From assembly GCA_016926625.1 (NCBI GenBank), contig JAFGOE010000075.1, positions 1 through 64,000 on the forward strand: 64,000 bases of DNA, read 5' to 3'. The stretch's first letter is position 1. The number at the start of each line of letters is the position of its first letter. The notes under the pieces were generated by a model, which was not told where the DNA came from, ran no database searches, and was given only the letters and a program-made list of their open reading frames with translations. This document shows positions 10,009-63,483 of this stretch, piece after piece. Origin of the DNA: Candidatus Zhuqueibacterota bacterium. GTDB taxonomy: Bacteria > Zhuqueibacterota > Zhuqueibacteria > Thermofontimicrobiales > Thiofontviventaceae. The translations under genes were made by a program, and so were the position numbers.

Positions 10009-10138
10009 ATATGGCTCCTTATAAAATTGCACATAAAACTTAAATTATTAGTTAGTTCTGTTGATTATTATTGAAAAAATACTTGTCTGGTACATTAAAA
10101 TTATCTAGGAATGGATTATTCCTCCTATTGATCGAGGG
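10009..10138. other. Gap upstream of the cohesin/dockerin gene
   Basis: Together with the inverted-repeat element next to it, this separates the 1396-aa gene from the protease gene by about 310 bp. Beyond the RBS at its left edge I see no confident promoter, hairpin or ORF. Confidence 0.4.
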
Positions 10139-44224: not shown

Positions 44225-44728
44225 CTACTTGCTGCTGTAGAATGTGATGAGATAGTAGATCTGAGCGAGGAGAGCCAGCTTAGTTGTAAATTCAACAAAC
44301 GAATTAATATGATGCCATTTTGAACCAGAAATAATAATGGTATCACCCGGGTTTAACATGGGAATCAACGATTCGTCGCCGTCCTTTAAATATTGTGACA
44401 CATTGATCTCTGAGATATTTTTCTCGGATGCGCTGGTACTTTCGGAATGTATAATTTTGATGTTGGATAATTTAGCTCCCTTGCTGGGTCCTCCGGCATA
44501 GGAGATCAGCGACATCAAATCCGTTTCGCTCGGGACCATATATTGACCCGGTTTGTTGACAAATCCCCAGATGTTCACTTTGATCAATAGTTCATCGCCT
44601 GTGCCCAGAAAATATTGAGCTCCGCGCGAATATTTATCCTCTTTGAGTTCCTGTGCGACCAGCAGACCGGAAAAAGTAAAAAATTGGATGAAGTACATGA
44701 CTAAAATTTTTTTACCCAGGATACGCAT
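44225..44728 (-). CDS. Small exported SLBB-domain protein
   Basis: 167 aa. A signal sequence (1-25, ending GLLVAQ) is followed by 'FLGTGDELLIKV', like the start of polysaccharide-export proteins, but this runs straight into a single SLBB domain (NIWGFVNKPGQYMVPSETDL ... LISYAGGPSKGA). The Poly_export body is missing. It ends with a hydrophobic segment (TKLALLAQIYYLITFY) that may be a C-terminal membrane anchor. GGAGG precedes the ATG. No polymerase or Wzc partner is adjacent. It is probably an accessory to glycan export. Confidence 0.8.
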   Translation of the reverse strand: MRILGKKILVMYFIQFFTFSGLLVAQELKEDKYSRGAQYFLGTGDELLIKVNIWGFVNKPGQYMVPSETDLMSLISYAGGPSKGAKLSNIKIIHSESTSASEKNISEINVSQYLKDGDESLIPMLNPGDTIIISGSKWHHINSFVEFTTKLALLAQIYYLITFYSSK

Positions 44729-48337: not shown

Positions 48338-48597
48338 AATACATCTCCCATCCGTTAGGTTAATTCTCACTGTTTGCTTAACGAATATACGATCGTGTTA
48401 CTCTCCTGCTTTATCATCATCTTAATTTAAGTACCATCTTGTACAGTATGAACTTGATGGTTTAATAATATAATAGTTTTCGCCGTGAAATACAACTAAA
48501 TATTTGCCAAGAACTTTTTATAAAACTATGCGTATGAATAGGTATGTTTTCTTATAAATCTTAATTATTGATCAATTATGATAGGAGGATTCACGGA

Positions 48598-49344
48598 ATG
48601 TGTTCCAAATGCATCAAATTAATTGCTATTTGTGGCTTATTGCAACTGCTTACCGTTACGACGACTCAAGCTCAGGTACAATTACAGGCTCAATCTCCAT
48701 CTCGTTTTCAGGTTAATCTCGATTTTCTTACCGGTTTCCCTCAGAATGAATTCAAGGAAAATGTGAAGAATACGGGATTCGGACTGGGTGCAGAATTCTT
48801 ATATCATATTCCAAATTCACCGTTATACCTGGGGGCTGGTCTGAATTTTCTGGTTTATGGGAGCGAATCGCGACGCGAAGCGATTTTTCCAAATATTCCG
48901 GATGTGACAGTAGAAGTTGAAACCTCAAATAATATCTTTTTTGGAGACCTCATCTTCCGAGCACAACCGCCATCAGGATACCTGAACGAAGTTTTACATC
49001 CATATGTTGAAGGCTTGATGGGGTTCAACTATTTATGGACTGAAACCAGTATCAAGGACGATGATTGGGATGATGATGATGAAATCAGTTCAAAAAACTA
49101 TAGTGACACTGCTTTGAACTACGGTTTCGGTGCCGGCATTATGTTCCGCATCGCTACGGGTAAGGCAGAAGATGATTTTCATAACATCTATCTGGATGTC
49201 AACGTGCGGTATCTGTTCGGCGAGAAAGCCAAGTATTTGAAAAAAGGTGGTATCATTCGCGAAGAGAATAAGGTCACGTACAACCCGACTGAATCGACGA
49301 CCGATTTACTCGTGCCTCGGCTTGGTGTGACATTTACTTTTTAA
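48598..49344 (+). CDS. Small outer-membrane beta-barrel protein
   Basis: 248 aa from the ATG at 48598, 9 nt after a perfect AGGAGG (48583-48588); the track's TTG at 48568 lies upstream of that RBS. A signal peptide ends VTTTQAQ. The mature part has an OmpA-like eight-strand pattern: 'FQVNLDFLTGFPQNEF', 'GFGLGAEFLYHI', 'LYLGAGLNFLVYG', 'HPYVEGLMGFNYLW', 'LNYGFGAGIMFRI', 'IYLDVNVRYLFG', ending 'PRLGVTFTF' with the C-terminal Phe typical of BAM substrates. An acidic loop (DDDWDDDDE-like) is exposed. Function unknown. Confidence 0.8.
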   Translation: MCSKCIKLIAICGLLQLLTVTTTQAQVQLQAQSPSRFQVNLDFLTGFPQNEFKENVKNTGFGLGAEFLYHIPNSPLYLGAGLNFLVYGSESRREAIFPNIPDVTVEVETSNNIFFGDLIFRAQPPSGYLNEVLHPYVEGLMGFNYLWTETSIKDDDWDDDDEISSKNYSDTALNYGFGAGIMFRIATGKAEDDFHNIYLDVNVRYLFGEKAKYLKKGGIIREENKVTYNPTESTTDLLVPRLGVTFTF

Positions 49345-49639: not shown

Positions 49640-50434
49640 CTATTCAGGACTCTCGTTAATATCCTTTACAATGACTCGCGGTCGTGTTTCCTTTGTGCCC
49701 GCTAATCCCATCCGACAAATTTTCAAAAAAATACGCTTTGCGTCTTCAGGATAATCAGGCTCATGCTTCTTCATCACCTCGAGCAGATCATAGAAAGTCC
49801 ATTGCTCTTCTATTGTCAGATTATCCGTGATGTCTTCGAATAGTGTAAACGCCTTCTGCCTGAGCTCTTCCTCCTTCTTGATGTCCTTCAGATTAGAATA
49901 GCACTCCATGCTGCTGATTCTGGCTAACAGATCGTCGTCCGAGAGCGCTTCTTGCGGCACAGGCTTCACAGTTTTGGTGGTTTTTTTTCGGCGAGGACGA
50001 TCGTCGATTACCTTGTAGGATGGCGTCAACGTATCGGGTTCAACTGGCTTTGGCGTCTCTGTATCAGACGCCTCCTCAAAGTCGTCCGTCTCTTCATTAA
50101 ATTCCACCGCACAATAACACTTATGATCGTGAAAAACGGGTTGGACTCTCATAATTCGACCCGAGCATTTAATGGTCTCTTTACCCGGTTCCACGATCTC
50201 AATTTTTTCGATGTTTGGATCTTCGATGCCGATAAAATGCTCAATACTGGATGTATATCCCAATAAACCGGCTCTGCTGATATTTACTACACTGATCTCA
50301 ACTACGCTTCCCCCTTTGAATTTGAATGTAACCTGCAGATCATTTTTCGGACTCATACGACGTCTTGGATGTTTCCTTCGCTCTACAAAGTCACCGTCCT
50401 TTTTGATCCTGCTGGTATCCGTTTTTCGCTGCAT
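49640..50434 (-). CDS. PilZ-domain protein
   Basis: 264 aa. The PilZ c-di-GMP-binding signature is visible: RxxxR-type 'ERRKHPRRRM' at the N-terminus, then 'VVNISRAGLLG' (the [D/N]xSxxG motif). The C-terminal half (about 140-264) is charged and helical ('DDLLARISSMECYSNLKDI', 'IEEQWTFYDLLEVMKKH') and unlike any domain I know. It is the last gene of the large glycan operon, 25 bp after the radical SAM gene, so it may couple c-di-GMP to glycan production. Confidence 0.85.
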   Translation of the reverse strand: MQRKTDTSRIKKDGDFVERRKHPRRRMSPKNDLQVTFKFKGGSVVEISVVNISRAGLLGYTSSIEHFIGIEDPNIEKIEIVEPGKETIKCSGRIMRVQPVFHDHKCYCAVEFNEETDDFEEASDTETPKPVEPDTLTPSYKVIDDRPRRKKTTKTVKPVPQEALSDDDLLARISSMECYSNLKDIKKEEELRQKAFTLFEDITDNLTIEEQWTFYDLLEVMKKHEPDYPEDAKRIFLKICRMGLAGTKETRPRVIVKDINESPE

Positions 50435-50459
50435 GACGTATTCCTCGCGTGATAACGCA

Positions 50460-51509
50460 TTATCGTTTCAGGTTCAATACTTTTCTGATGTTATCGAGCA
50501 GTTCATGTATCGATCTGGGGTGAATTAAAAGGTATCGCTGCGTGTAGCACGTTGTCCAGCAACCTCTGCATCTACTATACAATTCTAAGGCTTGTTTGTA
50601 ACTCTCACTCGTAAATATGTCAAATAAACTCTGATGATATAAATTGCCGATCGCACCTCCGTAACAAAGATATACATCACCATCCTCCATGATGGTGACC
50701 CGTGTTGCCAGTGAAGGAGAGTCTGTAAATGCACAATATTTAGTGACTTGGCCATTTATAAAATCATTAATACCTAAAATATATGAGTTTAGATTTAATA
50801 TATTGTGATTTGCGTCAAGAAATGATAAAATATCATCTAATTTTTTTCCGGGACGCAGTTTCAGTTCCTCGTCGTATCGGGTCGTCTCGGTCAGCGTATG
50901 ATAGACACCGATCGTGGTCTTCCAACCGAGGTCGACAGCGCGTTGGATCAATTCAGGGACTTGTTCCAGGTTGAGGTTATTGAGTACGATGTTTGCATAG
51001 AGTAATGATTTCGAATGACCACGTTTTTCTGAAATCAACTTCATATGCTTCAGCACGGTGTCGGAAAAATTTTTTGCACCTCTCAGATAATCGCCGATCT
51101 CTCCAAATCCATCGAGTGACGTCTGAATATTGATGTCGTTATCGAGAGCGACGGAAGCGGCTTTCTCAATAACCGATGTCTGATTGTACAATCCGGTTAC
51201 CAGCGTGGTGGCCTGGGAAAACGTCTGTTTAGCCTCCAGCAGAATTTTATCGAGATCCTGAACGAGCGTGGCTTCGCCACCGGAGATGAATCCAATATAA
51301 GCGCCGTATTCTCGAAGTCGTTTCGCGATCACCTTAAAAGAGTCAATATCCATGGAAGGAGGATTGGTCGTCCGCTCATAGACGCTGCATTGCCGGCATC
51401 GCTGAGTGCATAATCGGGTGATTCTGATCTCGGTACTGGAATTAATGGGTAATCGTCTGATTATTTTGGGAATCGCTTTCGTTGCGAATTGTCCTGTTGA
51501 CTTTAACAT
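50460..51509 (-). CDS. Radical SAM enzyme with SPASM-like C-terminus
   Basis: 349 aa. The 4Fe-4S cluster motif CTQRCRQC (CxxxCxxC) sits at about residue 33, followed by ISGGEATL, the SAM-binding GGE motif. The C-terminal part has scattered cysteines (CAFTDSP, VYLCYGG, RCRGCWTTC) suitable for one or two auxiliary clusters. Substrate not identifiable. It lies 31 bp downstream of a GT2 gene in the glycan operon, so modification of a sugar or lipid is possible; peptide modification is the family's best-known alternative but no precursor peptide gene is visible. Confidence 0.88.
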   Translation of the reverse strand: MLKSTGQFATKAIPKIIRRLPINSSTEIRITRLCTQRCRQCSVYERTTNPPSMDIDSFKVIAKRLREYGAYIGFISGGEATLVQDLDKILLEAKQTFSQATTLVTGLYNQTSVIEKAASVALDNDINIQTSLDGFGEIGDYLRGAKNFSDTVLKHMKLISEKRGHSKSLLYANIVLNNLNLEQVPELIQRAVDLGWKTTIGVYHTLTETTRYDEELKLRPGKKLDDILSFLDANHNILNLNSYILGINDFINGQVTKYCAFTDSPSLATRVTIMEDGDVYLCYGGAIGNLYHQSLFDIFTSESYKQALELYSRCRGCWTTCYTQRYLLIHPRSIHELLDNIRKVLNLKR

Positions 51510-51540
51510 ATACTAATTTCCTGCCGTATGATCCACATGA

Positions 51541-52680
51541 TTAATTTTTTCTTCCTTTCCACACGAATTTACCGAAATTACCTAACATTCCGACGAGCAT
51601 GACGTAGGGTATCTCCAGAAGGCTCCACAGAGGGAAGTACCGGATCAGATCGCCCCGCCCGTAAATGTGTGCGCCCCGCAGGATCACCATGAACTCGATC
51701 AACATTTTCAGAAGCAGGCTGCCGAGCACAATGGGCATGTGCTGCTGGGTGAAAATGCTTATCGGAATAGTAACGAACAGCGATGCATTCATCGTGAACG
51801 TGTTTAACAAGATTAGAAAAAACAGTTTATTAAGCTTTAATTGATACGATCCGTTCGATGCCCAGCGATTTCGTTGACTTACGAAACGTCTGAATGTTTT
51901 TTCCCCGTTAGTATGGTTGAATGAGCCCCTATTAGATGCAAATCGGATGTCCCAGTTCGTATTTCGATGGATGAGTTGTAGTAGTAGTACATCATCGCCC
52001 GAGATTCGATGACCGATCTCTTTAAAACCGCCGACTTCCTCAAAGGTGCATTTGCGATAGGCGATGTTTTGACCCGTTGCTGACAGGGGCATGTTGATAT
52101 TGAGAGAACCTTGTGCCGCGGTCAGCAGAGCCAGGAAATCGATCGCCTGCAGTTTTTCGAATAAGGAAAGGCGTTCCCCCGGAGACCCGATTTGCGAAAA
52201 TCCGACCACCATCCCTACATTTTCGGTGAAATACGACACCATCGTCTCGATCCATGTAGATTTTAATCTGCAGTCGGCGTCGGTCGAGAGGATGATATCA
52301 CCTTTGCTCTCCTTGATGCCTTGTTGAATCGCATTTTTCTTGGCTGTTAAAAGGCCATTTTTATCGTCGGCGGCTGTGACTAATCGGATGAATGGATAGT
52401 CGAGCGAAGCCGTGGCGACAATTTTAGCCGTATTATCCGATGATTGGTCATCGACCACGATCAACTCATAAAGTTCTCGCGGGTAGGTTTGCTGCAGAAG
52501 ATCGGAAAGCAAATGGCTGATGTTTTTCTCTTCATTACGCGCCGCGACAACCACACTGACGAAGTAATCTGCTGACTGCACCTTTTTGTTGATCCGAAAC
52601 GTGCCGAAAAGGAATATGAGCAGTGTGAGTGCGTACAGGATCGTCGTAATCCACGCTATTTGTACCATAATAGTGAACAT
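51541..52680 (-). CDS. Membrane GT2 glycosyltransferase (paralogue A)
   Basis: 379 aa. One N-terminal transmembrane helix (about 8-26), a GT-A domain and about three C-terminal helices. Motifs: VVVAARNEEKNI, VVDDQSSDNT, the metal-binding STDADC, SGDD and a processive-type QxxRW (SQRNRWASNG). It ends GNFGKFVWKGRKN, a tail shared with the two other GT2 proteins of the operon. Likely makes or extends a polyprenyl- or lipid-linked glycan at the inner membrane. The start lies 3 nt after the preceding stop. Confidence 0.9.
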   Translation of the reverse strand: MFTIMVQIAWITTILYALTLLIFLFGTFRINKKVQSADYFVSVVVAARNEEKNISHLLSDLLQQTYPRELYELIVVDDQSSDNTAKIVATASLDYPFIRLVTAADDKNGLLTAKKNAIQQGIKESKGDIILSTDADCRLKSTWIETMVSYFTENVGMVVGFSQIGSPGERLSLFEKLQAIDFLALLTAAQGSLNINMPLSATGQNIAYRKCTFEEVGGFKEIGHRISGDDVLLLQLIHRNTNWDIRFASNRGSFNHTNGEKTFRRFVSQRNRWASNGSYQLKLNKLFFLILLNTFTMNASLFVTIPISIFTQQHMPIVLGSLLLKMLIEFMVILRGAHIYGRGDLIRYFPLWSLLEIPYVMLVGMLGNFGKFVWKGRKN

Positions 52681-52683
52681 AGT

Positions 52684-53829
52684 TTAATGCGTATCCGGTT
52701 TCGGTTTCATTGCTGTTTGATAGGTCGTTCCTTTCCAGCGGAATTTTCCGAATTGGCCCCATAGTCCAAAAATAACCACGTAGGGTATATGAAAAAGAAC
52801 AGCGATCGGGAAATAGTCAATTAAATTATTCAGACGAAGTTGCCGAGCGGCCCTCTGAACCAGTGAGTATTCTGCTACAGACTTCACTATGATGCATCCA
52901 AGAAAGTACTTCCATAATTCAGGCGACCATAACGCCAGTAATGGCAGAATCATTAACAAGACGTTCATAAGATAAACGGCGACGAGGCTCAGGGTCATCC
53001 TGAATGAATAACGACTTCCTTTTGAAGCGTGCCGCGTTCGTTGATGAAAAAAATGTGAAAACGTTGCTGGTGCTTCGGAGGAGACGGTGCTGTCCGGATC
53101 GAGGACATAACGTGTTTCCCAGTTAGTATGTCGTACCACATGATGGAGAAGCAGATCATCGTCGCCTGACACGTACTGTCCGAATTTTAAAAATCCTCCG
53201 ATTTCATGAAAAACCCTGGTGCGGTAAGATAAATTTCTTCCGTTGCAAGTCAGTGGAAATCCTGCCCCGAAACTTCCCGCAGCTACCGCGGCTAGTGATA
53301 GCGCATCGAGTTGAACGAGTCTGCTGAATAGTGATTGCTTCTTCGCGCGATCTAACGGGGAAAAACCAGCGACCAGTCCGACGTGTTCATCGTACTGCCG
53401 GTTCATGGCTGAAATCCAACCTGGTTTAGTAATACAGTCAGCATCAGTCGTCAAAATAATCTCACCCTGAGCATTGTCTATCCCCTGAGATAGAGCGTTT
53501 TTTTTTGGTGCCATCTCTGATGTGGGTTGAACGATCCGGATCAGCTTCACCCGATCAAATTTGCTCGAGTAGGAGCTGACGATATCGGCTGTATCGTCGG
53601 TCGAACGATCATCGACGATGATAACCTCGTATCGATCGGCCGGATAGTGCTGAGCCAGCAGACTCTCGATGCAGTGACCGATGTTCTCGCTTTCATTTCG
53701 AGCCGCGATCACAACGGATACGGAATGGATCTTCTGATTGGTGCCGCTCTTTAACTGTGTTATACCACGGCGCAACCTGAGAATGATGATAACGTAAAAA
53801 AATGTCAATAGAACGAGTAATATATGCAT
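52684..53829 (-). CDS. Membrane GT2 glycosyltransferase (paralogue B, QxxRH variant)
   Basis: 381 aa, same architecture and clear sequence similarity to paralogues A and C: VVIAARNESENI, VDDRSTDDT, TTDADC, SGDDD. The acceptor-site motif is HQRTRHASKG, so the Trp of QxxRW is replaced by His; I checked the codon (CAC). Tail GQFGKFRWKGTTYQ. The start is 1 nt after the wzi stop, implying translational coupling. Confidence 0.9.
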   Translation of the reverse strand: MHILLVLLTFFYVIIILRLRRGITQLKSGTNQKIHSVSVVIAARNESENIGHCIESLLAQHYPADRYEVIIVDDRSTDDTADIVSSYSSKFDRVKLIRIVQPTSEMAPKKNALSQGIDNAQGEIILTTDADCITKPGWISAMNRQYDEHVGLVAGFSPLDRAKKQSLFSRLVQLDALSLAAVAAGSFGAGFPLTCNGRNLSYRTRVFHEIGGFLKFGQYVSGDDDLLLHHVVRHTNWETRYVLDPDSTVSSEAPATFSHFFHQRTRHASKGSRYSFRMTLSLVAVYLMNVLLMILPLLALWSPELWKYFLGCIIVKSVAEYSLVQRAARQLRLNNLIDYFPIAVLFHIPYVVIFGLWGQFGKFRWKGTTYQTAMKPKPDTH

Positions 53830-53830
53830 G

Positions 53831-55399
53831 CTACCAATTCATTTTAAGTTCGATGCTCACATTATTGTCTTTTGAGGAGTCACCTGCAATTCGATTTAAG
53901 TTATCAGTCCGCAAGAAATAGTAATTTAATGATACAAAGACATCTCTGAACACCTGATCACTGATGTGAACACCGTAACTCCACGTGTTCTCAACCGTTC
54001 CTGACAGGAATTTCTTCTTGCGGGAGTCACCCGAAGTATGCGGTCTGTTTAAGTCACCTTCTCCGTGCCTGGTTCTTTCGGTGATCAACGCCATTCGGAT
54101 ATCCCGGTTTATACGATAGTCCAATATTATAAACAGATCATCGGAATTCGGACCCAGCCAATGTCCGATCGATTGGTTATAGTTTTGATAGGTATTAACC
54201 GAATCCTTATGCGTATAAACGTACGGTTCGATACGCGCGTATTCCCATGAAAGGTTGAGGTCGGATAATCCCAGCGGATCTGCCCATTGATGGCCTATGA
54301 GGAATGCAAATTTATTTCCGTAATAAGTGAACGGATTCTCAGCCGTGGTAAAATCGTCTAAAAATAGTTCACCATAGATTTTGTGATGGCTCAGCGGGTA
54401 AATAGTCATGTCGAATCCCATGGTGTTATTGTCCCTGTCGCCCAGATGGTGCTCCGCTACATGATAAGGCATCAAGGGATTCAGATAAGATGGTTCGATG
54501 TCGCGATTGCCATAGATCACCGTTTCGCTGCCGCTGACAAAGAGCCAGGGAAATACCTTAAATTCGAGCCGGTGTCCTGCCATGTACTTCGTCGCAGCGC
54601 CAGAGTGAAGCGATCCGTGAAAGCTGATAAACCGAAATTTGTCGAAAGTGAACGATAGTTTCAATATTTCGAACAGCGGATTTTCCTTCGACAGCATCAG
54701 GCTGCCCCGCTTTCCTGGACCCCATTTGATCCGATCCCGGCCGAATTCCATCTGAAACCAGTCCCGTTGATACGTCATGTAGGCCCAGGCCTCGTCGGAA
54801 TAAACATTTCCGCCTGATATCGTCTTCGGTGTGCCGTAACGCGGATCAAACGTTTCTTCGATAAGATCGGTGCCCTGCTCCAGAGAATTGCGAGCTCTTA
54901 TGTAGAAATTAAAATGATCTCCAAATTGACCGCGTACAATTCCTCCCAGCGTGGTGAAGGACGTTCGCTCGGTTTCAGAATATTGGTCGCCTCGCTTGAC
55001 ATCCAAAAGCTGTTCGAATTCACCGTCTACGTTAATCGAATTATCCCCTTGCTCCCATGTTAAGAGGTGGCGTTCATGATAACGGGTTTTAGATGTTACG
55101 CCTAACCTGCTAAGTTCTTGATGAAACTCACCCTTCAATTGTTCGAACACATTCAAATCAGCATCGGATAAATGGTCTGTTGCTGTCGAATCGATATGAG
55201 CTAAAAAATGCGCCATGTCGCTCCGGGTGAGAGGATACGATTTCGTAAGCAATCCCCGGTATAATCCCAGAGTCTCTAATCGCTCGATGTAATCGTAAGC
55301 CCAGTGATCCAGTGGGATATTGATCGATTGAGCATGAGAGATGTGAATGCAGATGAGTGTAAGTACGCCCGTGAACAGTTTCGGCAAATATTGATTCAC
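53831..55399 (-). CDS. Wzi-family capsule assembly outer-membrane protein
   Basis: 522 aa, GTG start with AGGA 8 nt upstream. A signal peptide (ending HISHAQ) is followed by a helical N-terminal domain with 'LDHWAYDYIERLETLGLY' and 'PLTRSDMAHFLAHID', then a long beta-barrel with many amphipathic strands ('FQMEFGRDRIKWGPGKRGSL' is the most recognisable Wzi block). Wzi attaches capsular polysaccharide at the outer surface. Its presence inside this operon is the best evidence that the product is a surface glycan. Confidence 0.88.
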   Translation of the reverse strand: MNQYLPKLFTGVLTLICIHISHAQSINIPLDHWAYDYIERLETLGLYRGLLTKSYPLTRSDMAHFLAHIDSTATDHLSDADLNVFEQLKGEFHQELSRLGVTSKTRYHERHLLTWEQGDNSINVDGEFEQLLDVKRGDQYSETERTSFTTLGGIVRGQFGDHFNFYIRARNSLEQGTDLIEETFDPRYGTPKTISGGNVYSDEAWAYMTYQRDWFQMEFGRDRIKWGPGKRGSLMLSKENPLFEILKLSFTFDKFRFISFHGSLHSGAATKYMAGHRLEFKVFPWLFVSGSETVIYGNRDIEPSYLNPLMPYHVAEHHLGDRDNNTMGFDMTIYPLSHHKIYGELFLDDFTTAENPFTYYGNKFAFLIGHQWADPLGLSDLNLSWEYARIEPYVYTHKDSVNTYQNYNQSIGHWLGPNSDDLFIILDYRINRDIRMALITERTRHGEGDLNRPHTSGDSRKKKFLSGTVENTWSYGVHISDQVFRDVFVSLNYYFLRTDNLNRIAGDSSKDNNVSIELKMNW

Positions 55400-55472
55400 T
55401 ATCTATGTCCTCGTGTTGTGCAAATTTAAATATAGCAAAATCAGGATCAATTTCAACCTTTTTTTGTGTTAT

Positions 55473-56087
55473 TTACAATTTAGTACACAACATGTTGTGT
55501 TTATGAACGATCCCGATGACATCGTGTAATAGGGATACCGTCCGCTGACTAAGGATGTGCCCGTCATGAAATACAATAATCGTTCCCGGGCTCATATTTT
55601 TCGATATGTGATGTAAAATATTTTTATCACTCACGCTGACCGAGAAATCGTAGGTCATATGGGTCCACATGACCATCTTCATTCCATTTTCCTGGATTAT
55701 TTTGATAAGACGGGGGGTGAAATGTCCATAAGGTGGACGGAAGTAAACCGGTCGCTCTGAAGTAATTCTAATCAACGTGTTATACGATGTCTCAATTTCA
55801 TAATCTAACATCCTTTTCGTTTTAAATAACAGAGAACAATGGGTCTGTGAATGGATACCGAGTGTATGCCCTTCGCTCAGAGCTAAGCGAACGATGTCCG
55901 GATGTGCTTCGGCCTTTTCACCGACAACAAAGAATGTTGCCTTCGCATTAGCAGCGGCCAGTATATCGAGAATCTGCGGTGTATACTCCGGGTGAGGACC
56001 GTCGTCAAAGGTCAAATAAATATGCGGCTGTTCTGTATTGACCGACCATATGATCGAGGGAAATAATAACTTGGCCACAGATATCAT
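55473..56087 (-). CDS. Polysaccharide deacetylase (NodB/CE4)
   Basis: 204 aa from the ATG at 56087, 1 nt after the upstream GT2 stop and close behind GGAAGGA; the track's longer form would overlap that gene by 53 bp. All CE4 motifs are present: TFDDGPH (catalytic Asp and metal Asp), HSQTH (metal His pair), RPPYG and a C-terminal IIVFHDGH. It removes N-acetyl groups from a glycan or lipid-linked sugar. There is no clear signal peptide, although the N-terminal 'MISVAKLLFPSIIW' is hydrophobic, so deacetylation may occur at the membrane. Confidence 0.92.
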   Translation of the reverse strand: MISVAKLLFPSIIWSVNTEQPHIYLTFDDGPHPEYTPQILDILAAANAKATFFVVGEKAEAHPDIVRLALSEGHTLGIHSQTHCSLLFKTKRMLDYEIETSYNTLIRITSERPVYFRPPYGHFTPRLIKIIQENGMKMVMWTHMTYDFSVSVSDKNILHHISKNMSPGTIIVFHDGHILSQRTVSLLHDVIGIVHKHNMLCTKL

Positions 56088-56088
56088 C

Positions 56089-57213
56089 TCATTTTTCCTT
56101 CCATCGATATGAACCGATAAATCCCAGGAAGCTGGTGACAACGATGTAAGCGAGTTGGAAAAATTCTGCCAATGGGAGATAGGGTAGCAGGTCTCGCCGT
56201 TTCAGTAAGGTCAGCCCCTTACGAATAAACGCGCAGTCGAAAACCATTTTGATGACGAATAAAAACAACGGAAAAATGAAAGAGATATGTCCGAGCAACG
56301 CCAAAAACATCATCGTGGTCAAGACGAGATAGAGGAAATAGACCGACAGCAGGTAAACGGTCAGGCTGGTGTTGTTATAATGTGCCCCCTTGGATGCCCA
56401 GCGGCTTCGTTGATGAACGAATTGCCTCAGCGATTTAACCGGTTCCGTGTAAATAACGCTTTCCGTATCGATAGAATAGGTGACTTTTTGCTCCGTTCTG
56501 GAGTGGACCTTTTGAATGAACAGATCATCGTCACCGCTTGGCAGCCTATCGATCCCTTCAAATCCGTCGACGGACTCGAACACCGATTTACGGTACGACA
56601 GATTTGCTCCATTCGCAATGATAGGCTGGCCACTGCCGATACTGCCCATGCCGGCCAGGATCAGTGATATAAATTCGAGAGATTGAACTTTTAAAGATAG
56701 CTTCGTCTCAGCCGATTTATGAAACATCACCGGTCCTGCCACAACGCCCACATCATCGGTGAAATGGGCTACCATCGATTTGATCCAGTTTGGAGGGGCA
56801 ACTGTATCAGCATCCGTCGTCATGATAATCTCGTTTCTGCTCGCCTTAATACCAAGGGTAATCGCATGTTTTTTAGGAGAATCGACGATCTGATTTTGCA
56901 GAACACTGATGTATCGAACGTTGTGTCTGAGACGAGAGTATTTATGAACAATTTGCTCTGTACCATCATCGGAACGATCATTGATCACAATCACCTCGAA
57001 CTTGTCAGCCGGATAATTTTGTTGTATCAGCGCATCGAGACATCGGGATATATTCATGGCTTCGTTACGAGCCGGGATTACGACAGAGACAGAATGCTGA
57101 TTTCGATTAAGACCGCTCGATAATTTATCTAAACCGAAATAAAATATCATCAATCGATGCAGGTAGATGATTAGTAGGAGTAAAGTGACGATGCCGAGAA
57201 TTAAAGTTGTCAT
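56089..57213 (-). CDS. Membrane GT2 glycosyltransferase (paralogue C)
   Basis: 374 aa from the ATG at 57213, 2 nt after the flippase stop; the track's TTG at 57219 overlaps that stop. One N-terminal helix, GT-A domain (VVIPARNEAMNI, INDRSDDGT, TTDADT, SGDDD, HQRSRWASKG = QxxRW) and about three C-terminal helices. The tail GFIGSYRWKEK matches paralogues A and B. Most likely an inner-membrane transferase acting early in the same pathway. Confidence 0.9.
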   Translation of the reverse strand: MTTLILGIVTLLLLIIYLHRLMIFYFGLDKLSSGLNRNQHSVSVVIPARNEAMNISRCLDALIQQNYPADKFEVIVINDRSDDGTEQIVHKYSRLRHNVRYISVLQNQIVDSPKKHAITLGIKASRNEIIMTTDADTVAPPNWIKSMVAHFTDDVGVVAGPVMFHKSAETKLSLKVQSLEFISLILAGMGSIGSGQPIIANGANLSYRKSVFESVDGFEGIDRLPSGDDDLFIQKVHSRTEQKVTYSIDTESVIYTEPVKSLRQFVHQRSRWASKGAHYNNTSLTVYLLSVYFLYLVLTTMMFLALLGHISFIFPLFLFVIKMVFDCAFIRKGLTLLKRRDLLPYLPLAEFFQLAYIVVTSFLGFIGSYRWKEK

Positions 57214-57215
57214 GC

Positions 57216-58241
57216 TCAATGCTGATCATAAAAATTAACGAGTTTATTTTTTAGAACGATAAAGAAGCCGATCATGCTGGGTATCAATATGTTCAAGATG
57301 AAGGTCATGATGGACGCGTTGAAGGCGGTTGCTTGCTGAGCACCGACTTTCGCGAGGAAAAATATAGCCGCGCTCTCACGAATTCCCAAATCACCGAGAG
57401 AGATCGGCAACAGCGATTTGACGAGCAAAGTGGAGGAGATGGCCTGGAATGCTCTGAACAGGTGAATGTGTTCGAACGCGATAACCAACAAGGAAAATTG
57501 AATGAAGTAGATCAGATAAAAAATCACAGAGTAGATGATCAGTCGATAGGCATTTTTTCTGTTAAAATTATCGAATACACTGATCAGTTGTTTAATCTTG
57601 TCGCGGATCGGTAAGATAACGTTTATTTTATAAAGCAGGGTTCGTATCAACTCGGGGTGAATGAGCACGTAGCGAAGCAGCAACAGTGTGATGATCGTAA
57701 AGATCAGCAACGGTAGCAGGATAAAAAAATGCAACTGTTTACCGAGCAGACTCAGAATTCCGATCGACCCCATGAAAATGACGATGGCGAGCGAGAAAAA
57801 TTTATCGATAAACGATACGCCTATGACCTTCATCCAGGGGCAATCTTTGATGAAAAACGCCCTGCCAAATTCACCAACGCGTCCCGGTGTGATGAAACCG
57901 AACGCGAAACCAGCCAGCAGCGATTTCAATGCTTCCGCATTATCGGCTTCGGGTTTTACTAAGCGAATTAAATATCGCCATTTATAATATTGAATGTAAA
58001 TATTGGGGACGACGAGCAATGCCGCCATGATGATGTAAATATAGGTCGCTTTCCCAAAGGTCGTGATGATGTTAGCGACTTTTAAATTTTTCACTAACAT
58101 GACCATGACCATCACGGTCAGGATCAGTTTGAAGAGAAATATTAAGCGCCTTCTGGATATAAATTTTCTGTCCCTGACTGCAGTTGTTACAGATGTCGAT
58201 TCCTCTTCTATTTTTAATACTTTTCGTTCTGAATTGTTCAT
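57216..58241 (-). CDS. Lysylphosphatidylglycerol-synthase-type transmembrane protein (UPF0104 flippase-like)
   Basis: 341 aa, about eight hydrophobic helices. 'GFAFGFITPGRVGEFGRAFFI' and 'LPISLGDLGIRESAAIFFL' are the hallmarks of the AglD/LPG-synthase membrane domain, which in other systems flips or transfers lipids. The N-terminal 57 codons (to 58241) overlap the radical SAM gene in another frame. No later start codon leaves the first helix intact. It may flip a glycolipid made by the adjacent GT2 proteins. Confidence 0.85.
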   Translation of the reverse strand: MNNSERKVLKIEEESTSVTTAVRDRKFISRRRLIFLFKLILTVMVMVMLVKNLKVANIITTFGKATYIYIIMAALLVVPNIYIQYYKWRYLIRLVKPEADNAEALKSLLAGFAFGFITPGRVGEFGRAFFIKDCPWMKVIGVSFIDKFFSLAIVIFMGSIGILSLLGKQLHFFILLPLLIFTIITLLLLRYVLIHPELIRTLLYKINVILPIRDKIKQLISVFDNFNRKNAYRLIIYSVIFYLIYFIQFSLLVIAFEHIHLFRAFQAISSTLLVKSLLPISLGDLGIRESAAIFFLAKVGAQQATAFNASIMTFILNILIPSMIGFFIVLKNKLVNFYDQH

Positions 58242-59169
58242 ATGGGATTGATCGCCAGATAGATGTTACGGTTTGTTGTCTCTCAATCATGCCGAATGTA
58301 AATCGTCCGTGTTTATCGAAACAGCACGGGACGACCTCACCATTCGACAAAATTGTTGTGCTGGTCCATAGACGTTTACACGGTTTCAAAAGATTCTTTA
58401 ACTGCAGATCCGCGCCTTCTGTTTCATAGCGACGAAACTTTTTTGTCAGCGGAATATATTTTTCGGCTCCGTTCGAATCGATGATTTGAATGGTCTTAAA
58501 GATCAGTTTATCCGCACCGAGTGAGCTGACCAGTTTATTGATTTCACCCAGCTCATGTTCATTTCCTCGCGTGACCAGAGATTGAATAATGATACGCGGA
58601 TTCTTTCTTTTGAGCCGTTTCCTTGCGTCTGTTAGATGCTTAATGCCGTCGATAACTCGATGAAAATCGCCACCGCGACGATACGATTCGTAGGACGCTT
58701 CATCAGCACCTTCGAGCGAGATGATTATTTTATCCAGGTCCGAATGAACCAGATCTTCGCATAGATGATCGTCACCGAGAAAATGTCCGTTTGTACTGGT
58801 GATAACATATATACGGTATTTTTTCGCATAACGGATCATCGCCAGGAGGTCACGATGAAGAAAAGGTTCACCCTGATTATATAGTATAAGATACCATAAA
58901 CTGCGACCCATTTCATCAATTATTTTTTTATAATGCTCGTAGTTAAGGTCGCACACCCTGCGTTTTAACATCCCGGCACCGGTAGCACATTGAGGACATC
59001 GCAAATTACATCGGTTCGTCGGTTCGATGGTTAGAATATATGGCACTCCCCAGACACGCGATTTTTTGAGGAGCAGGGACAGATAAAAAGATGCGTGGAT
59101 GCGAAACAGATTGATGATTCGGTGAAGCTTGATCGGTTTCAGTATGCCCCAATCCCACAATTCTCTCAT
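58072..59169 (-). CDS. Radical SAM enzyme with SPASM domain
   Basis: 365 aa. CNLRCPQC cluster motif near residue 52, 'NQGEPFLH' as the GGE-equivalent, and a complete SPASM tail: LKPCKRLW, VVPCCFDKHG and GIDICNNCSQG, enough cysteines for auxiliary Fe-S clusters. The final CNNC codons (58180-58191) lie inside the region shared with the flippase gene. Substrate unknown; neighbours suggest modification of a lipid or sugar carrier. Confidence 0.9.
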   Translation of the reverse strand: MRELWDWGILKPIKLHRIINLFRIHASFYLSLLLKKSRVWGVPYILTIEPTNRCNLRCPQCATGAGMLKRRVCDLNYEHYKKIIDEMGRSLWYLILYNQGEPFLHRDLLAMIRYAKKYRIYVITSTNGHFLGDDHLCEDLVHSDLDKIIISLEGADEASYESYRRGGDFHRVIDGIKHLTDARKRLKRKNPRIIIQSLVTRGNEHELGEINKLVSSLGADKLIFKTIQIIDSNGAEKYIPLTKKFRRYETEGADLQLKNLLKPCKRLWTSTTILSNGEVVPCCFDKHGRFTFGMIERQQTVTSIWRSIPYEQFRTKSIKNRRGIDICNNCSQGQKIYIQKALNISLQTDPDRDGHGHVSEKFKSR

Positions 59170-59313
59170 GCGTCATTTTGCTTTCTTACTTAATCGTGAA
59201 TCATTTACTGTTCTTTCTCGGACGGCTCATTGTCAGGAGATAATTATCGACTACCCTATCCGGTATACTGCAGCATGTGAAGTTCAGTCTTGCCCCACTG
59301 TGCTTTCAGGAAA

Positions 59314-60111
59314 TTACAGCATACGGTGCGATGCGTCGGCCGGATAAACAAGCATATACCAGGTCGGATTGACGAATCGATTGAAAAGGGTATCACCATC
59401 ACTTACCCATTTTCGCAGGGCTCTATCGAATCGTATCATCTTAAGGAAGCGTACCATGGTTAAATGCAGCGGATTACACACGATCGATCGAGGATTGTTG
59501 AACAAACGATCCACCGCCCGCCGAGTGACAAACTGATGCTTCAGGGCGAGTTGTCCCAGCAGCTCTTTCAGTTTAAAATAACTGAGCAGCGCTGCCCAAT
59601 CTGTTTTACGATCCCTGTCTATCTTTAAAATCCGTGGAACGATCATTTTAATCCATCTCCGGGAAAGGATCGAAACACACGGCAGGTTCCAATGGGGATC
59701 AGCGATTAAATTGAGTGGTGAAAGTCGGTTTGGAGTGCACAGGTAAATCGTTCCGTTCGATTTCAGTACACGCTTCGCCTCGGCCAGCATCAGGGCAGGA
59801 TCGATGACATGTTCAATAACGTCCTGCATGATGATGAAGTCGAAAATTTGATCCCTAAACCCGAGGGCCTGCCCATTCATGATGCAAAAACCTGTATCCG
59901 CTGAACCGCCTGCCAATTTATTCGCCATATCGACCGCATACATATGAGCACCAATGGCTGCCAGGAGGGAGGCCGTGCCCCCCTCGCCGCAACCGATATC
60001 GAGAATATATTTCCCTTTGATGGCATCGATTGAAGTTAATATATCGGCGATGAAACGCCCTCGTTGATCCTTAAATGCCGCATAGTTAATCCAGGTCTTC
60101 GATGATTTCAT
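59314..60111 (-). CDS. Class I SAM-dependent methyltransferase
   Basis: 265 aa from the ATG at 60111 (the GTG at 60120 is an equal alternative; neither has a good RBS). SAM-binding motif I ILDIGCGEGGTAS, acidic motif II YAVDMAN, and 'FDFIIMQDVIEHVIDP ... LMLAEAKRVLKSNGTIYLCTP', the UbiE/Methyltransf_11 pattern. The last 100 residues are basic and helical. It is the first gene of the operon, 144 bp upstream of the radical SAM gene. It may methylate a sugar or lipid of the same pathway. Confidence 0.9.
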   Translation of the reverse strand: MKSSKTWINYAAFKDQRGRFIADILTSIDAIKGKYILDIGCGEGGTASLLAAIGAHMYAVDMANKLAGGSADTGFCIMNGQALGFRDQIFDFIIMQDVIEHVIDPALMLAEAKRVLKSNGTIYLCTPNRLSPLNLIADPHWNLPCVSILSRRWIKMIVPRILKIDRDRKTDWAALLSYFKLKELLGQLALKHQFVTRRAVDRLFNNPRSIVCNPLHLTMVRFLKMIRFDRALRKWVSDGDTLFNRFVNPTWYMLVYPADASHRML

Positions 60112-60216
60112 TGCGAACACAGTGTAAGGTTGATATGAGAAGCGCCCACGATTTTAATGTCATTTTAGATGTTCGAATGCTGCGTCTTATATCCCCTGTG
60201 ATCTGATTCCTCCTGA

Positions 60217-63200
60217 CTATTGATTAAACCAAACCTTGATGGTTTTAATTTTATAAGGCTCGAAAGTCAGCCGTATTTGATTTTTTTCAAAGGCTAATTC
60301 GTCGATCTCCTCCTCGAGTAAGTTTGACACGACGGCTTTTTGAACGTTCTCAGGAAGTGTGATGGTGGCTACGGTTTCGCGGCCGTAGGCTTCATACAAT
60401 CTTAAAATGAGCGTCGTCTGCTGAACCGTCGACTCATCCTTAAACGTCTGTTCAGGTTCTCCGGCCTTTATCGTATTCAAAACGATGTTCGGTTTATCCA
60501 CTGCGAAAAACGATTTGGTCTTCGTCCATTTCCCCTGATGTGACGAAGTCGCTTTAGCCATTAGCGGGTAGTTGTATTCGAATGCATGCTGCATCGTTCT
60601 GCCGCATTTCCAGCATTTCGAGTGAGGATAGAGTGAATATTCAAGGTGATGTTCTCCCATATCGGCCATGGGATCCGGCCATTTCGGAGACCGCAGCAGA
60701 CTGAGACGCATTACGGAATCGTGAATATCGCCACCGTATTTCGCCCTGTTGAGAAGGCTGACACCAAGGTCGTGTTCCGGATTGGTCAGGTCGGACCATT
60801 TTTGCTGACTGACTTCAAAGCGCGCTTTTTCCCAGTCGTTGTTCATGGTGGTGGGGCGCTTAATGCTGCCAAAGGGTATCTCGTAGGTAGCAAGACTATC
60901 GCTTACCGCGACATTGAAAGCTACTTTCAGCATCACATGATCCTCCCACCAGTCGGCGTGAGTAACGAAATCGATCCGATCTATACCATCATAGAGAATG
61001 ATATCCTGTTTGAAATAACTATTCGGATTATTGGGTGTGGGGTACGATTTAATCACGCCCGGTTTAAGGAAGTCATGTTCTACCCGAACCACACTGCGCA
61101 CCGGACCGGATTCAACGATCTGGATACCGCGGAACGTGGACGGAAATCTTTCACCAAGTCCTATATTCCACGCGTCCCAGGCCGATGGCCTGTCGTCAAA
61201 AAGCTTTAATTCATTGCCTGCACCGGCCAGAATCTCCGTTTTATTACGAATGTCGTAAATAGAACGTATCCATCCGGATGACGGATCGATCGCTATCTTG
61301 AAAAATTGGTTCTCGATTTCCGTCGCAGTCGTTTTTAGCGTTGACTCATATCGTGTTTTAGCAGAGGGACGCAGTTCATAGACCTCGTAACCCATAGAGG
61401 GTACGTCTTTAGCCATGAACAGGATCACATCATGATAACGGTGTGAGGTAACGGTTTGTGATGTAACTTCATTACCCTGCGAGTCGAAGACGAGAAAATT
61501 CTGAGCGGTGCCTTTATCGATTTTTAATTCTACGATATCAGTTCTTGTCCAGGGCAGCGTGTTGTAAACGACCACCGGGGTGGCATTCGCCGACTTCGAT
61601 CGGGTATCGATATTTTTGATGATGTAATCGAACGCACGTTCGCTTTCTTCATCCGCAATATGGAAGACCTCCTCATACTGTCTGTCCGCATCTTTATAGA
61701 CGGGGTAAATACTGGAGCCGGGAAGTACGTCGTGAAATTGATTGAACAGGATGTGCTGCCAGCCGTCGAGAAAATTTTGATACGGATAAGGATAACCGTA
61801 AATGCTGGCGATGGACGACAGTTGCTCGGCGTTGTTAAACTTGACCTCAGACAGGCGGTTATGATATTTAGTGTCCGATTGAGTCGTGTAGGTCCCACGA
61901 TGATATTCCAGATATAATTCATCCTGCCAGACCGGTAATTGCGACAGATCGTATTCTGCAAGCCAGTCGAGATAAGCCGTCGCCGTACCGTATTCCAACT
62001 GCGGGTAGATATCGATTTCCCTCAGGTAATTGACCTGATCCAGCATCTCCGGTGTAGGCCCTCCACCATGGTCGCCGACTCCGTACAAGAGTAACATTTT
62101 TTTAAAGCCGGTGTTGGCCTCAAATTGTCTCATCCAGTCCGAATAACCGTAAGGATTTTTCATGTCGTTCACATAGTTGTACGGGAAATAGGTAAGTATC
62201 CTGGAACTGTCGGGCCCCTGCCACCAGAACAGACGGTACGGGAACATGTTCGTGTCGTTCCAACCGATTTTTTGGGTGATAAACGCCTTGATCCCTGCAT
62301 CGGAATAGATCTGCGGCATGTTCCAATTATAGCCGAATGAATCCGGATTCCAGCCTATTTTAATATCGACGCCGAATTTTTCATAAAAATAACGTTTGCC
62401 GTACAATAGTTGACGCACCCACGATTCTCCGGAAATTAGATTACAGTCCGGTTCGACCCACATACCGCCTACCAATTCGAAACGACCATCTTTAACTCTT
62501 TGATGAATCCGCTCGTTCAGCTCGGGAAACATGGTTTCAATCCACCAGAAGAGATGCGCCTGACTTTGAGTATAGGTGAAATCGGGACGTGCGTCCATCA
62601 TGTTGAGCACTGATTCGAACGTATTTTTCGCGATGTTGATCGTTTCCAGATAGCGCCACAACCAGGCGCAATCGATGTGTGCGTTGGAATCGAGAACCAG
62701 CGTAAATTCTTTCGCATAATCGGCAACGGGCTGATATATTTTTCTTGCTCTGTCAAGTGAAGCCTCAAAGATTTCGACATCATTTCTATGCAACGCATCG
62801 AGGCGAACCTCGCGTGCGGCCTTATCCAGAACGTCCCGCAACGCGATGCGTTTCTCTCTGGGGGTTTTGCTCAGATCGATGCCATCGTCCCGTTTGGTGC
62901 TGCCCACCTGGAGGTAGGTGTCATCGCTGAGCAGTTTCTTCCCGACACGCAGGCTGAGCGTGAAATTTTCAATTTCTTCTCGATACGGCTGAACCGCATC
63001 CCAATTGAGCGACGCATTGATGAGCCGTAAGGGACCGCCGGTATTGAAAGCCTTGATCACGACGGTGTAATCAGCACCCGGAACGGCGTTTTCGGTCAAT
63101 AAAAATTCACCTGTCCAGTTGAAAGTCCCTTTTTTCTCTCCATTGATCCAGCAGGTGCCGCCATCATCCACCGTGAGTTGAAGCGTTATTTTACCCCCTC

Positions 63201-63483
63201 GCTTCAGTCGACGGCCTAATATCGATTGGGGAAGGGTTACGATCTTTCTGAACCATGCGGAGTCGGCCTGACTGCGTTCGCCCAGGCTCATGTCGCTCCA
63301 ATCTCTGTCATTGAAGTCGTTTCGATACGCTTCCTGGTTCATGATTTCACTATATTTCCATGTATCGAAATTCGTGTTGATCGCTTCGTGCAACTCATTT
63401 ACGACTTGATCTATTACATCCTGAGATTGAGCTGCTGTGAAAGACACGAACAGCATCATCAAAATGAAAGCCCATCGTTTCAT
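60217..63483 (-). CDS. Secreted GH38 alpha-mannosidase
   Basis: 1088 aa. A signal peptide (1-18, ending TAAQS) is unusual for this mostly cytosolic bacterial family. A beta-sandwich (about 50-165, DDGGTCWINGEKKG) precedes the GH38 catalytic domain: zinc ligands in SNAHIDCAWLW (His269, Asp271) and the predicted nucleophile Asp381 in GWNPDSFGYN. Helical-bundle and C-terminal beta domains follow to the end (LTFEPYKIKTIKVWF). Zinc- and substrate-binding residues look complete, so an active alpha-mannosidase acting on mannose-containing glycans outside the cytoplasm is likely. AAAGGA precedes the ATG. The SGNH gene is upstream, 78 bp away on the same strand. Confidence 0.92.
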   Translation of the reverse strand: MKRWAFILMMLFVSFTAAQSQDVIDQVVNELHEAINTNFDTWKYSEIMNQEAYRNDFNDRDWSDMSLGERSQADSAWFRKIVTLPQSILGRRLKRGGKITLQLTVDDGGTCWINGEKKGTFNWTGEFLLTENAVPGADYTVVIKAFNTGGPLRLINASLNWDAVQPYREEIENFTLSLRVGKKLLSDDTYLQVGSTKRDDGIDLSKTPREKRIALRDVLDKAAREVRLDALHRNDVEIFEASLDRARKIYQPVADYAKEFTLVLDSNAHIDCAWLWRYLETINIAKNTFESVLNMMDARPDFTYTQSQAHLFWWIETMFPELNERIHQRVKDGRFELVGGMWVEPDCNLISGESWVRQLLYGKRYFYEKFGVDIKIGWNPDSFGYNWNMPQIYSDAGIKAFITQKIGWNDTNMFPYRLFWWQGPDSSRILTYFPYNYVNDMKNPYGYSDWMRQFEANTGFKKMLLLYGVGDHGGGPTPEMLDQVNYLREIDIYPQLEYGTATAYLDWLAEYDLSQLPVWQDELYLEYHRGTYTTQSDTKYHNRLSEVKFNNAEQLSSIASIYGYPYPYQNFLDGWQHILFNQFHDVLPGSSIYPVYKDADRQYEEVFHIADEESERAFDYIIKNIDTRSKSANATPVVVYNTLPWTRTDIVELKIDKGTAQNFLVFDSQGNEVTSQTVTSHRYHDVILFMAKDVPSMGYEVYELRPSAKTRYESTLKTTATEIENQFFKIAIDPSSGWIRSIYDIRNKTEILAGAGNELKLFDDRPSAWDAWNIGLGERFPSTFRGIQIVESGPVRSVVRVEHDFLKPGVIKSYPTPNNPNSYFKQDIILYDGIDRIDFVTHADWWEDHVMLKVAFNVAVSDSLATYEIPFGSIKRPTTMNNDWEKARFEVSQQKWSDLTNPEHDLGVSLLNRAKYGGDIHDSVMRLSLLRSPKWPDPMADMGEHHLEYSLYPHSKCWKCGRTMQHAFEYNYPLMAKATSSHQGKWTKTKSFFAVDKPNIVLNTIKAGEPEQTFKDESTVQQTTLILRLYEAYGRETVATITLPENVQKAVVSNLLEEEIDELAFEKNQIRLTFEPYKIKTIKVWFNQ

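Follow-up and report, generated by a model that had tools for sequence, protein, structure and literature searches.

A conserved locus of membrane GT2 glycosyltransferases and radical SAM enzymes in candidate division KSB1 and other bacterial groups

Closest described systems and the gene block

In the bacteriohopanetetrol cyclitol ether pathway, a family 2 glycosyltransferase (GT2), a deacetylase and a radical S-adenosylmethionine (SAM) enzyme (HpnI, HpnK and HpnJ) process a lipid-linked amino sugar one after the other (PMC12583986). The radical SAM enzyme BtrN, which has an auxiliary cluster with four cysteine ligands, oxidizes an aminocyclitol (PMC9012708), and Wzi has been described as a lectin (PMC3791409). 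We have analyzed a stretch of 64,000 nucleotides (“the window”) of contig JAFGOE010000075.1 from a Candidatus Zhuqueibacterota bacterium (assembly GCA_016926625.1), which carries, at positions 49640–60120, ten open reading frames (ORFs), all on the minus strand, that bring together membrane GT2s, radical SAM enzymes, a deacetylase and a Wzi-like barrel. These ten genes are one operon-like block that recurs widely; the locus is real, conserved and apparently undescribed (a literature search for this gene set found no description), and every part of it comes from a known family.

Like HpnI-HpnK-HpnJ, the locus has a membrane GT2, a sugar deacetylase and a radical SAM enzyme; unlike that pathway, its GT2s are distant relatives scoring below the family cut-offs, the genome has no hopene cyclase match, and the locus additionally has several GT2s, two more radical SAM enzymes, a flippase-like protein and a Wzi-like barrel. 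As in Group 1/Wzx-Wzy capsule loci, a Wzi-family outer-membrane barrel (PF14052, 70 vs 30 bits) adjoins glycosyltransferases, but the conserved block has membrane GT2s and radical SAM enzymes in place of Wzx, Wzy, Wzc, Wza or an ABC exporter. With synthase-type systems (PgaC/poly-N-acetylglucosamine, NodC-NodB, cellulose) it shares a membrane GT2 fold with QxxRW, a NodB-like deacetylase of carbohydrate esterase family 4 (CE4) and a PilZ signal; it differs in scoring far below the family cut-offs, in having several different GT2s and in lacking dedicated export proteins. For the poly-N-acetylglucosamine system PgaABCD in particular, PgaC is among the best NCBIfam matches of the GT2s at only 78–83 bits against a cut-off of 422, and a PgaA/PgaB-type gene was not found in the block. 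Further, one radical SAM enzyme of the locus has the radical SAM domain and four-cysteine twitch cluster of BtrN and another is nearest to BlsE, but BtrN and BlsE belong to antibiotic pathways, act on soluble substrates and have no membrane GT2s and outer-membrane proteins encoded alongside them. By analogy, then, the locus may work like hpnIKJ with a capsule-display barrel added, yet by the tests applied here it belongs to neither system.

The gene names of the first-pass annotation held for the whole block: all ten ORFs are present, and all ten proteins pass the Pfam cut-offs for the families first named, with GT2 in three of them and Radical_SAM plus SPASM in two. Read in the direction of the genes, a class I SAM methyltransferase (MT; 59314–60120, 268 aa; Pfam Methyltransf_11/23, with Methyltransf_11 at 63 bits against a cut-off of 21) is followed by rSAM1 (58072–59169, 365 aa), a twitch-type radical SAM enzyme with CxxxCxxC and a BtrN-like four-cysteine auxiliary cluster, and by LPGS (57216–58241, 341 aa), a polytopic membrane protein of the LPG_synthase_TM/flippase-like kind (PF03706, 82 vs 33 bits). 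Next come the membrane glycosyltransferase GT2a (56089–57219, 376 aa; DxD, SGDDD and QxxRW) and the small NodB-like CE4 deacetylase (55473–56087; PF01522, Polysacc_deac_1, 118 vs 23 bits), whose best NCBIfam model is NodB (133 bits, cut-off 240) and whose preferred start is the ATG at 56087, 1 nt past the GT2a stop, the longest ORF beginning with a TTG at 56141. The Wzi-like barrel (53831–55399, 522 aa, likely signal peptide) matches PF14052 (Caps_assemb_Wzi) over model positions 14–389 of 392 and precedes two more membrane GT2s, GT2b (52684–53829, 381 aa) and GT2c (51541–52680, 379 aa). The block closes with rSAM2 (50460–51509, 349 aa), a second SPASM/twitch-type radical SAM enzyme, and a 264-aa PilZ protein with a helical C-terminal part (49640–50434; PF07238, marginal at 23.2 vs 22.5 bits). 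Two radical SAM enzymes had been named from the start, but the SPASM/twitch C-terminus then given to one of them is present in both. Intergenic distances reach at most 144 nt and go down to overlaps; the tightest junctions are LPGS/GT2a (−4), Wzi/GT2b (1) and GT2b/GT2c (3 nt), and the reading frames of rSAM1 and LPGS overlap by 170 nt.

Conservation, layout and enzyme families

In the survey of relatives rSAM2 served as the anchor, and 44 mapped loci were scored with hidden Markov models built from the locus genes. Because many of these loci also served to train the models, the pair counts given here describe the set and are no independent test; gene order does not depend on the models. Absences at loci of relatives cut by contig ends were not scored as losses. 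The mapped loci come from more than 40 genomes, belonging to many families of candidate division KSB1 and to Zixibacteria- and Gemmatimonadota-labelled genomes, and rSAM2 matches occur in metagenome-assembled genomes labelled candidate division KSB1, Calditrichota, Zixibacteria and Gemmatimonadota. An rSAM2 orthologue is clear in 24 of 60 related genomes (the window’s own included), at 56–69% identity to the window protein in the 23 others, after which the score drops sharply to near-full-length rivals of about 26–29% identity. The first-pass annotation had named co-occurrence in five or more genera as support for a system; rSAM2 is found, in single copy, in 26 of the 82 genomes of the phylum, spread over 21 of 59 KSB1 genera and eight families, with gene order kept across families and other phylum-level groups.

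Conservation of the locus is far beyond chance: all mapped loci have their recognized members on the same strand, in an order that hardly varies. Many junctions have a median gap of −4, which points to translational coupling. The commonest adjacent pairs are GT2b-GT2c (31), Wzi-GT2b (24), GT2c-rSAM2 (23), rSAM1-LPGS (16), LPGS-GT2a (14) and GT2e-rSAM3 (13); rSAM2 is the most conserved gene of the locus and sits directly after GT2c in all 23 loci of that pair. MT was recognized in 18 of the 44 loci, mostly beside GT2d, rSAM1 or LPGS, and CE4 in only 10.

Relatives add GT2d, GT2e, rSAM3, DUF3108 and a PHP-type metallohydrolase to the window’s set, and the longest layout (L045) reads GT2d-MT-rSAM1-LPGS-GT2a-Wzi-GT2b-GT2c-rSAM2-DUF3108-GT2e-rSAM3-PHP. 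In general, CE4 is optional between GT2a and Wzi, and rSAM2 is followed either by DUF3108-GT2e-rSAM3-PHP or by PilZ; the window is a shorter form, carrying CE4 and PilZ. The protein of about 540 aa that ends the longer loci in several phyla (L088, L096, L100, L103 and others) has an N-terminal hydrophobic segment, a weak PHP match (of three members tested, two get no Pfam call) and conserved His/Asp/Glu positions such as a PHP metal center typically has. DUF3108 proteins have the YmcC fold according to one paper (PMC4364669). DUF3108 occupies the PilZ position in other KSB1 families and is also found in Zixibacteria-labelled loci, whereas PilZ is present in eight loci, of families f1/f2 only. 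PilZ, first taken as part of the system, is thus not core but an accessory confined to the window’s order. By its residues the window protein fits a c-di-GMP-binding PilZ, with both RxxxR and (D/N)xSxxG; the motif RxxxR...NxSxxG is intact in it and largely kept among the eight sequences (window included), the S being replaced in L038.

The three GT2s of the window were first thought to be duplicates. A tree tells otherwise: the GT2a, GT2b, GT2c, GT2d and GT2e groups sort by gene position and not by genome (GT2b rows falling into more than one group), and a recent triplication is ruled out. Catalytic Asp motifs are retained in nearly all GT2 rows aligned, and the clades have motifs of their own: QRxRHASKG in place of QxxRW in GT2b (KSB1 loci), SGDDVLL and QRxRWASNG in GT2c, a motif resembling QKxRHLSAG in GT2d and, in GT2e, a shortened ED motif, so that QxxRW is found in GT2a and GT2c and QxxRH in GT2b and GT2d. 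Since the groups follow position and carry clade motifs, the window’s GT2s are separate old enzymes; clades that track position and differ at the acceptor site fit one enzyme per step, and their number would favor stepwise assembly. An AlphaFold2 model of GT2c (mean predicted local distance difference test score 88.8) places one membrane helix at the N-terminus and three at the C-terminus and, in a fold search of the PDB, matches hyaluronan synthases, BcsA and the archaeal mannosyltransferase PcManGT; the GT2c profile aligns to ceramide glucosyltransferase over positions 8–271. The fold of hyaluronan synthases and PcManGT is common to polymerizing and single-step enzymes and does not tell them apart.

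In rSAM1, which carries the CxxxCxxC and four further cysteines expected of a twitch-type (BtrN-like) enzyme with one auxiliary cluster, C264, C282, C327 and C330 align with the auxiliary-cluster cysteines of the sugar-alcohol dehydrogenase BtrN (4M7S/4M7T) and are invariant in 11 sequences. Its best solved relatives are BtrN and then BlsE, both with sugar-type substrates, and BlsE is the nearest solved structure to rSAM3. The nearest solved relative of rSAM2 by both sequence and fold is SkfB, at superfamily distance, and its fold search returned general SPASM/twitch relatives only (SkfB, SuiB, BlsE; TM-score about 0.6), which name no substrate. A sugar substrate seems plausible for these enzymes, with stronger support in the case of rSAM1 and rSAM3 than in that of rSAM2.

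Among 37 KSB1 genomes with GT2c, rSAM2 is present in 24, and the other 13 keep strong GT2c orthologues without it. Where the next stretch is sequenced in the latter, GT2c is usually followed by DUF3108-GT2e-rSAM3 (L087, L088, L089, L090, L092, L093, L096, L098); L095 is cut short by a contig end. Absence of radical SAM genes from homologous loci, which the first-pass annotation held would count against the system, is therefore seen for rSAM2 alone, in these 13 genomes, and not for the class, almost every locus with adequate coverage having at least one radical SAM gene. These genes are optional and interchangeable, tailoring genes on a conserved GT2b-GT2c “scaffold,” and the genetic ties are of rSAM2 with GT2c, of rSAM3 with GT2e and of rSAM1 with LPGS/MT.

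Eight of the nine genomes in the phylum-level group around G083 have retained rSAM2; those examined carry relatives of GT2b and GT2c at other genomic positions, often as a pair, and some have rSAM1 at another position as well. At L076, L077 and L080–L083 of this group rSAM2 stands alone among varied neighbors, in a single copy that is nearly universal, which suggests that it can serve some role without the complete locus.

Candidate pathway and competing explanations

With confidence a little above even, we favor a lineage-conserved pathway whose product would be a surface glycolipid or lipid-linked oligosaccharide with tailored sugars. GT2d, a, b and c (and e where present), anchored in the membrane, would act successively at its cytoplasmic side, every enzyme attaching one specific sugar to a lipid acceptor. 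As optional tailoring, the NodB-like deacetylase may free an amino group on a sugar, the methyltransferase may methylate one, and the twitch-type radical SAM enzymes could oxidize, epimerize or otherwise rework sugar carbon. The LPGS-type protein, a putative glycolipid flippase that is plausible as such by family membership alone, would flip the product, the Wzi-like barrel (with DUF3108 in many lineages) would receive or display it at the outer membrane, and the PilZ protein probably adds c-di-GMP control in the window’s order.

The gene set, its order and conservation, the clade structure and the intact motifs are observed; the lipid acceptor, sugar order, radical reactions, flipping, surface location and c-di-GMP control we infer. 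Counted in favor of the glycolipid pathway are the same-strand loci, the GT2 clades, the one-plus-three-helix model of GT2c and its ceramide glucosyltransferase match, the BtrN/BlsE relatives, NodB, Wzi and the lack of a polymer-export set. The envelope glycan pathway of the first-pass annotation thus stands as a coherent pathway supported by conserved co-occurrence and order, while flipping and surface display would follow from family membership. Its claim that the locus has no Wzx/Wzy or ABC exporter also holds for the conserved block and the immediate window neighbors searched: no Wzx, Wzy or Wzc/Wza was recognized in either, no ABC permease or ATPase recurs among the named members of the mapped loci, and none was found in those neighbors.

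Several points weigh against this pathway. It has no known substrate, product or cultured host. Wzi-type barrels occur throughout the phylum (76 of 82 genomes, often in several copies), so Wzi alone is no proof of capsule handling; LPGS scores 34.6 bits against TIGR00374 in NCBIfam, below the cut-off of 43.2; and the window’s own genome has five Wzx-family (PF01943) genes, all on other contigs, so that an unlinked flippase could serve. In the G083 group rSAM2 and GT2b-GT2c lie apart, beside housekeeping genes, and need not act only with Wzi, and G013 and G023 carry rSAM2 without a strong GT2c.

More tentatively, and with clearly less confidence, one may think of an undescribed envelope glycolipid route across KSB1 and neighboring phyla, in which up to five position-specific GT2s and up to three partner radical SAM enzymes rewrite sugars during or after assembly, with LPGS for flipping and Wzi/DUF3108 for display. 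If true, surface sugars modified by radical chemistry would form a class without known counterpart. We found no experimental studies of surface chemistry in KSB1-type bacteria. A conserved locus that couples membrane glycosyltransferases with dedicated radical SAM enzymes leads one to expect sugars with unusual modifications on a lipid of the envelope; the defined enzyme pairs GT2c-rSAM2 and GT2e-rSAM3 make the chemistry directly testable, and the presence or absence of radical SAM genes from lineage to lineage is a natural comparison linking gene to chemical structure.

The product could instead be a polymer, an exopolysaccharide or capsule made by a processive GT2 of the synthase type (PgaC/NodC/HAS-like), with CE4 deacetylation, export or holding by Wzi and c-di-GMP control through PilZ, as the PgaC matches, the hyaluronan synthases (HAS) and BcsA among the closest structures, the QxxRW of GT2a and GT2c and the presence of PilZ and CE4 would allow. 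We consider this rather unlikely: the PgaC scores are far under the cut-off, the modelled GT2c has four membrane helices only, a locus with as many as five different GT2 clades fits stepwise assembly, the motif of GT2b and GT2d is QxxRH, and neither a BcsB/PgaA/PgaB-type export partner nor an outer-membrane polysaccharide export (OPX) gene lies in the block.

A second alternative, that the locus modifies a membrane lipid (a hopanoid or other isoprenoid) and makes no surface glycan, draws on the logic shared with hpnIKJ, a GT2, a deacetylase and a radical SAM enzyme acting on a lipid (PMC12583986), and on HpnI and HpnB being among the GT2 matches. These matches are weak (about 48–76 bits against cut-offs of 310–379; HpnI 48–51 vs 310), Wzi and DUF3108 point to the outer membrane, and squalene-hopene cyclase (PF13243) has no match in the window’s genome (G000, 85% complete) nor a hopene cyclase domain in most locus-bearing genomes. 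A hopanoid acceptor was rejected as the main idea on the lack of this domain in the genome, and we hold the alternative to be improbable.

Slightly less credible still is the idea that two or three independent pathways just happen to be neighbors (MT-rSAM1-LPGS-GT2a-CE4, Wzi-GT2b-GT2c-rSAM2 and DUF3108-GT2e-rSAM3-PHP). The modules are indeed split in some genomes, with rSAM1 on a separate contig in G004, two modules at L033 set 3.5 kb apart by a stretch that includes a RecQ-like gene, and dispersed genes in the G083 group, but most complete loci, in several families (L045, L088, L096 and the window), are a single unbroken same-strand run.

A glycosylated ribosomally synthesized and post-translationally modified peptide (RiPP) or cofactor, of the mycofactocin or sactipeptide kind, is suggested by SkfB as the relative of rSAM2 and by MftF as one of the top NCBIfam matches for GT2b, but was rejected as highly improbable, since 495 candidate peptides from intergenic stretches gave no conserved small ORF, most gaps could not accommodate a precursor gene, the rSAM2 core begins at about residue 27 with no N-terminal extension able to hold a RiPP recognition element (RRE) domain, and MftD/MftE genes were not found.

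Neighboring genes and other features of the window

A large ORF that resembles an alpha-mannosidase of glycoside hydrolase family 38 (GH38; 60217–63483, minus strand) lies 96 nt upstream of MT on the same strand and was excluded as a member, as it was not found in related loci; a GDSL lipase lies further upstream of it. An outer-membrane protein gene at 48568–49344, on the opposite strand, was likewise not counted. A scan of the window for tRNAs and Rfam families gave no match.

About 5 kb beyond the PilZ gene is a stand-alone SLBB-domain protein of 167 aa with a likely signal peptide (44225–44728, minus strand), which resembles a fragment of a polysaccharide export protein of the OPX type. 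The ORFs at 1762–4164, 5818–10032, 10318–13311 and 20098–24069 (minus strand) encode large secreted proteins that end in an NYPNPFN-type tail at the C-terminus, such tails being typical of sorted proteins in the Fibrobacteres-Chlorobi-Bacteroidetes group. Beyond the window, the same contig encodes (L051:10498–12528) a possible hydrogen sensor, in which the large-subunit domain of an iron-only hydrogenase is fused with Fe-S domains and a histidine kinase.

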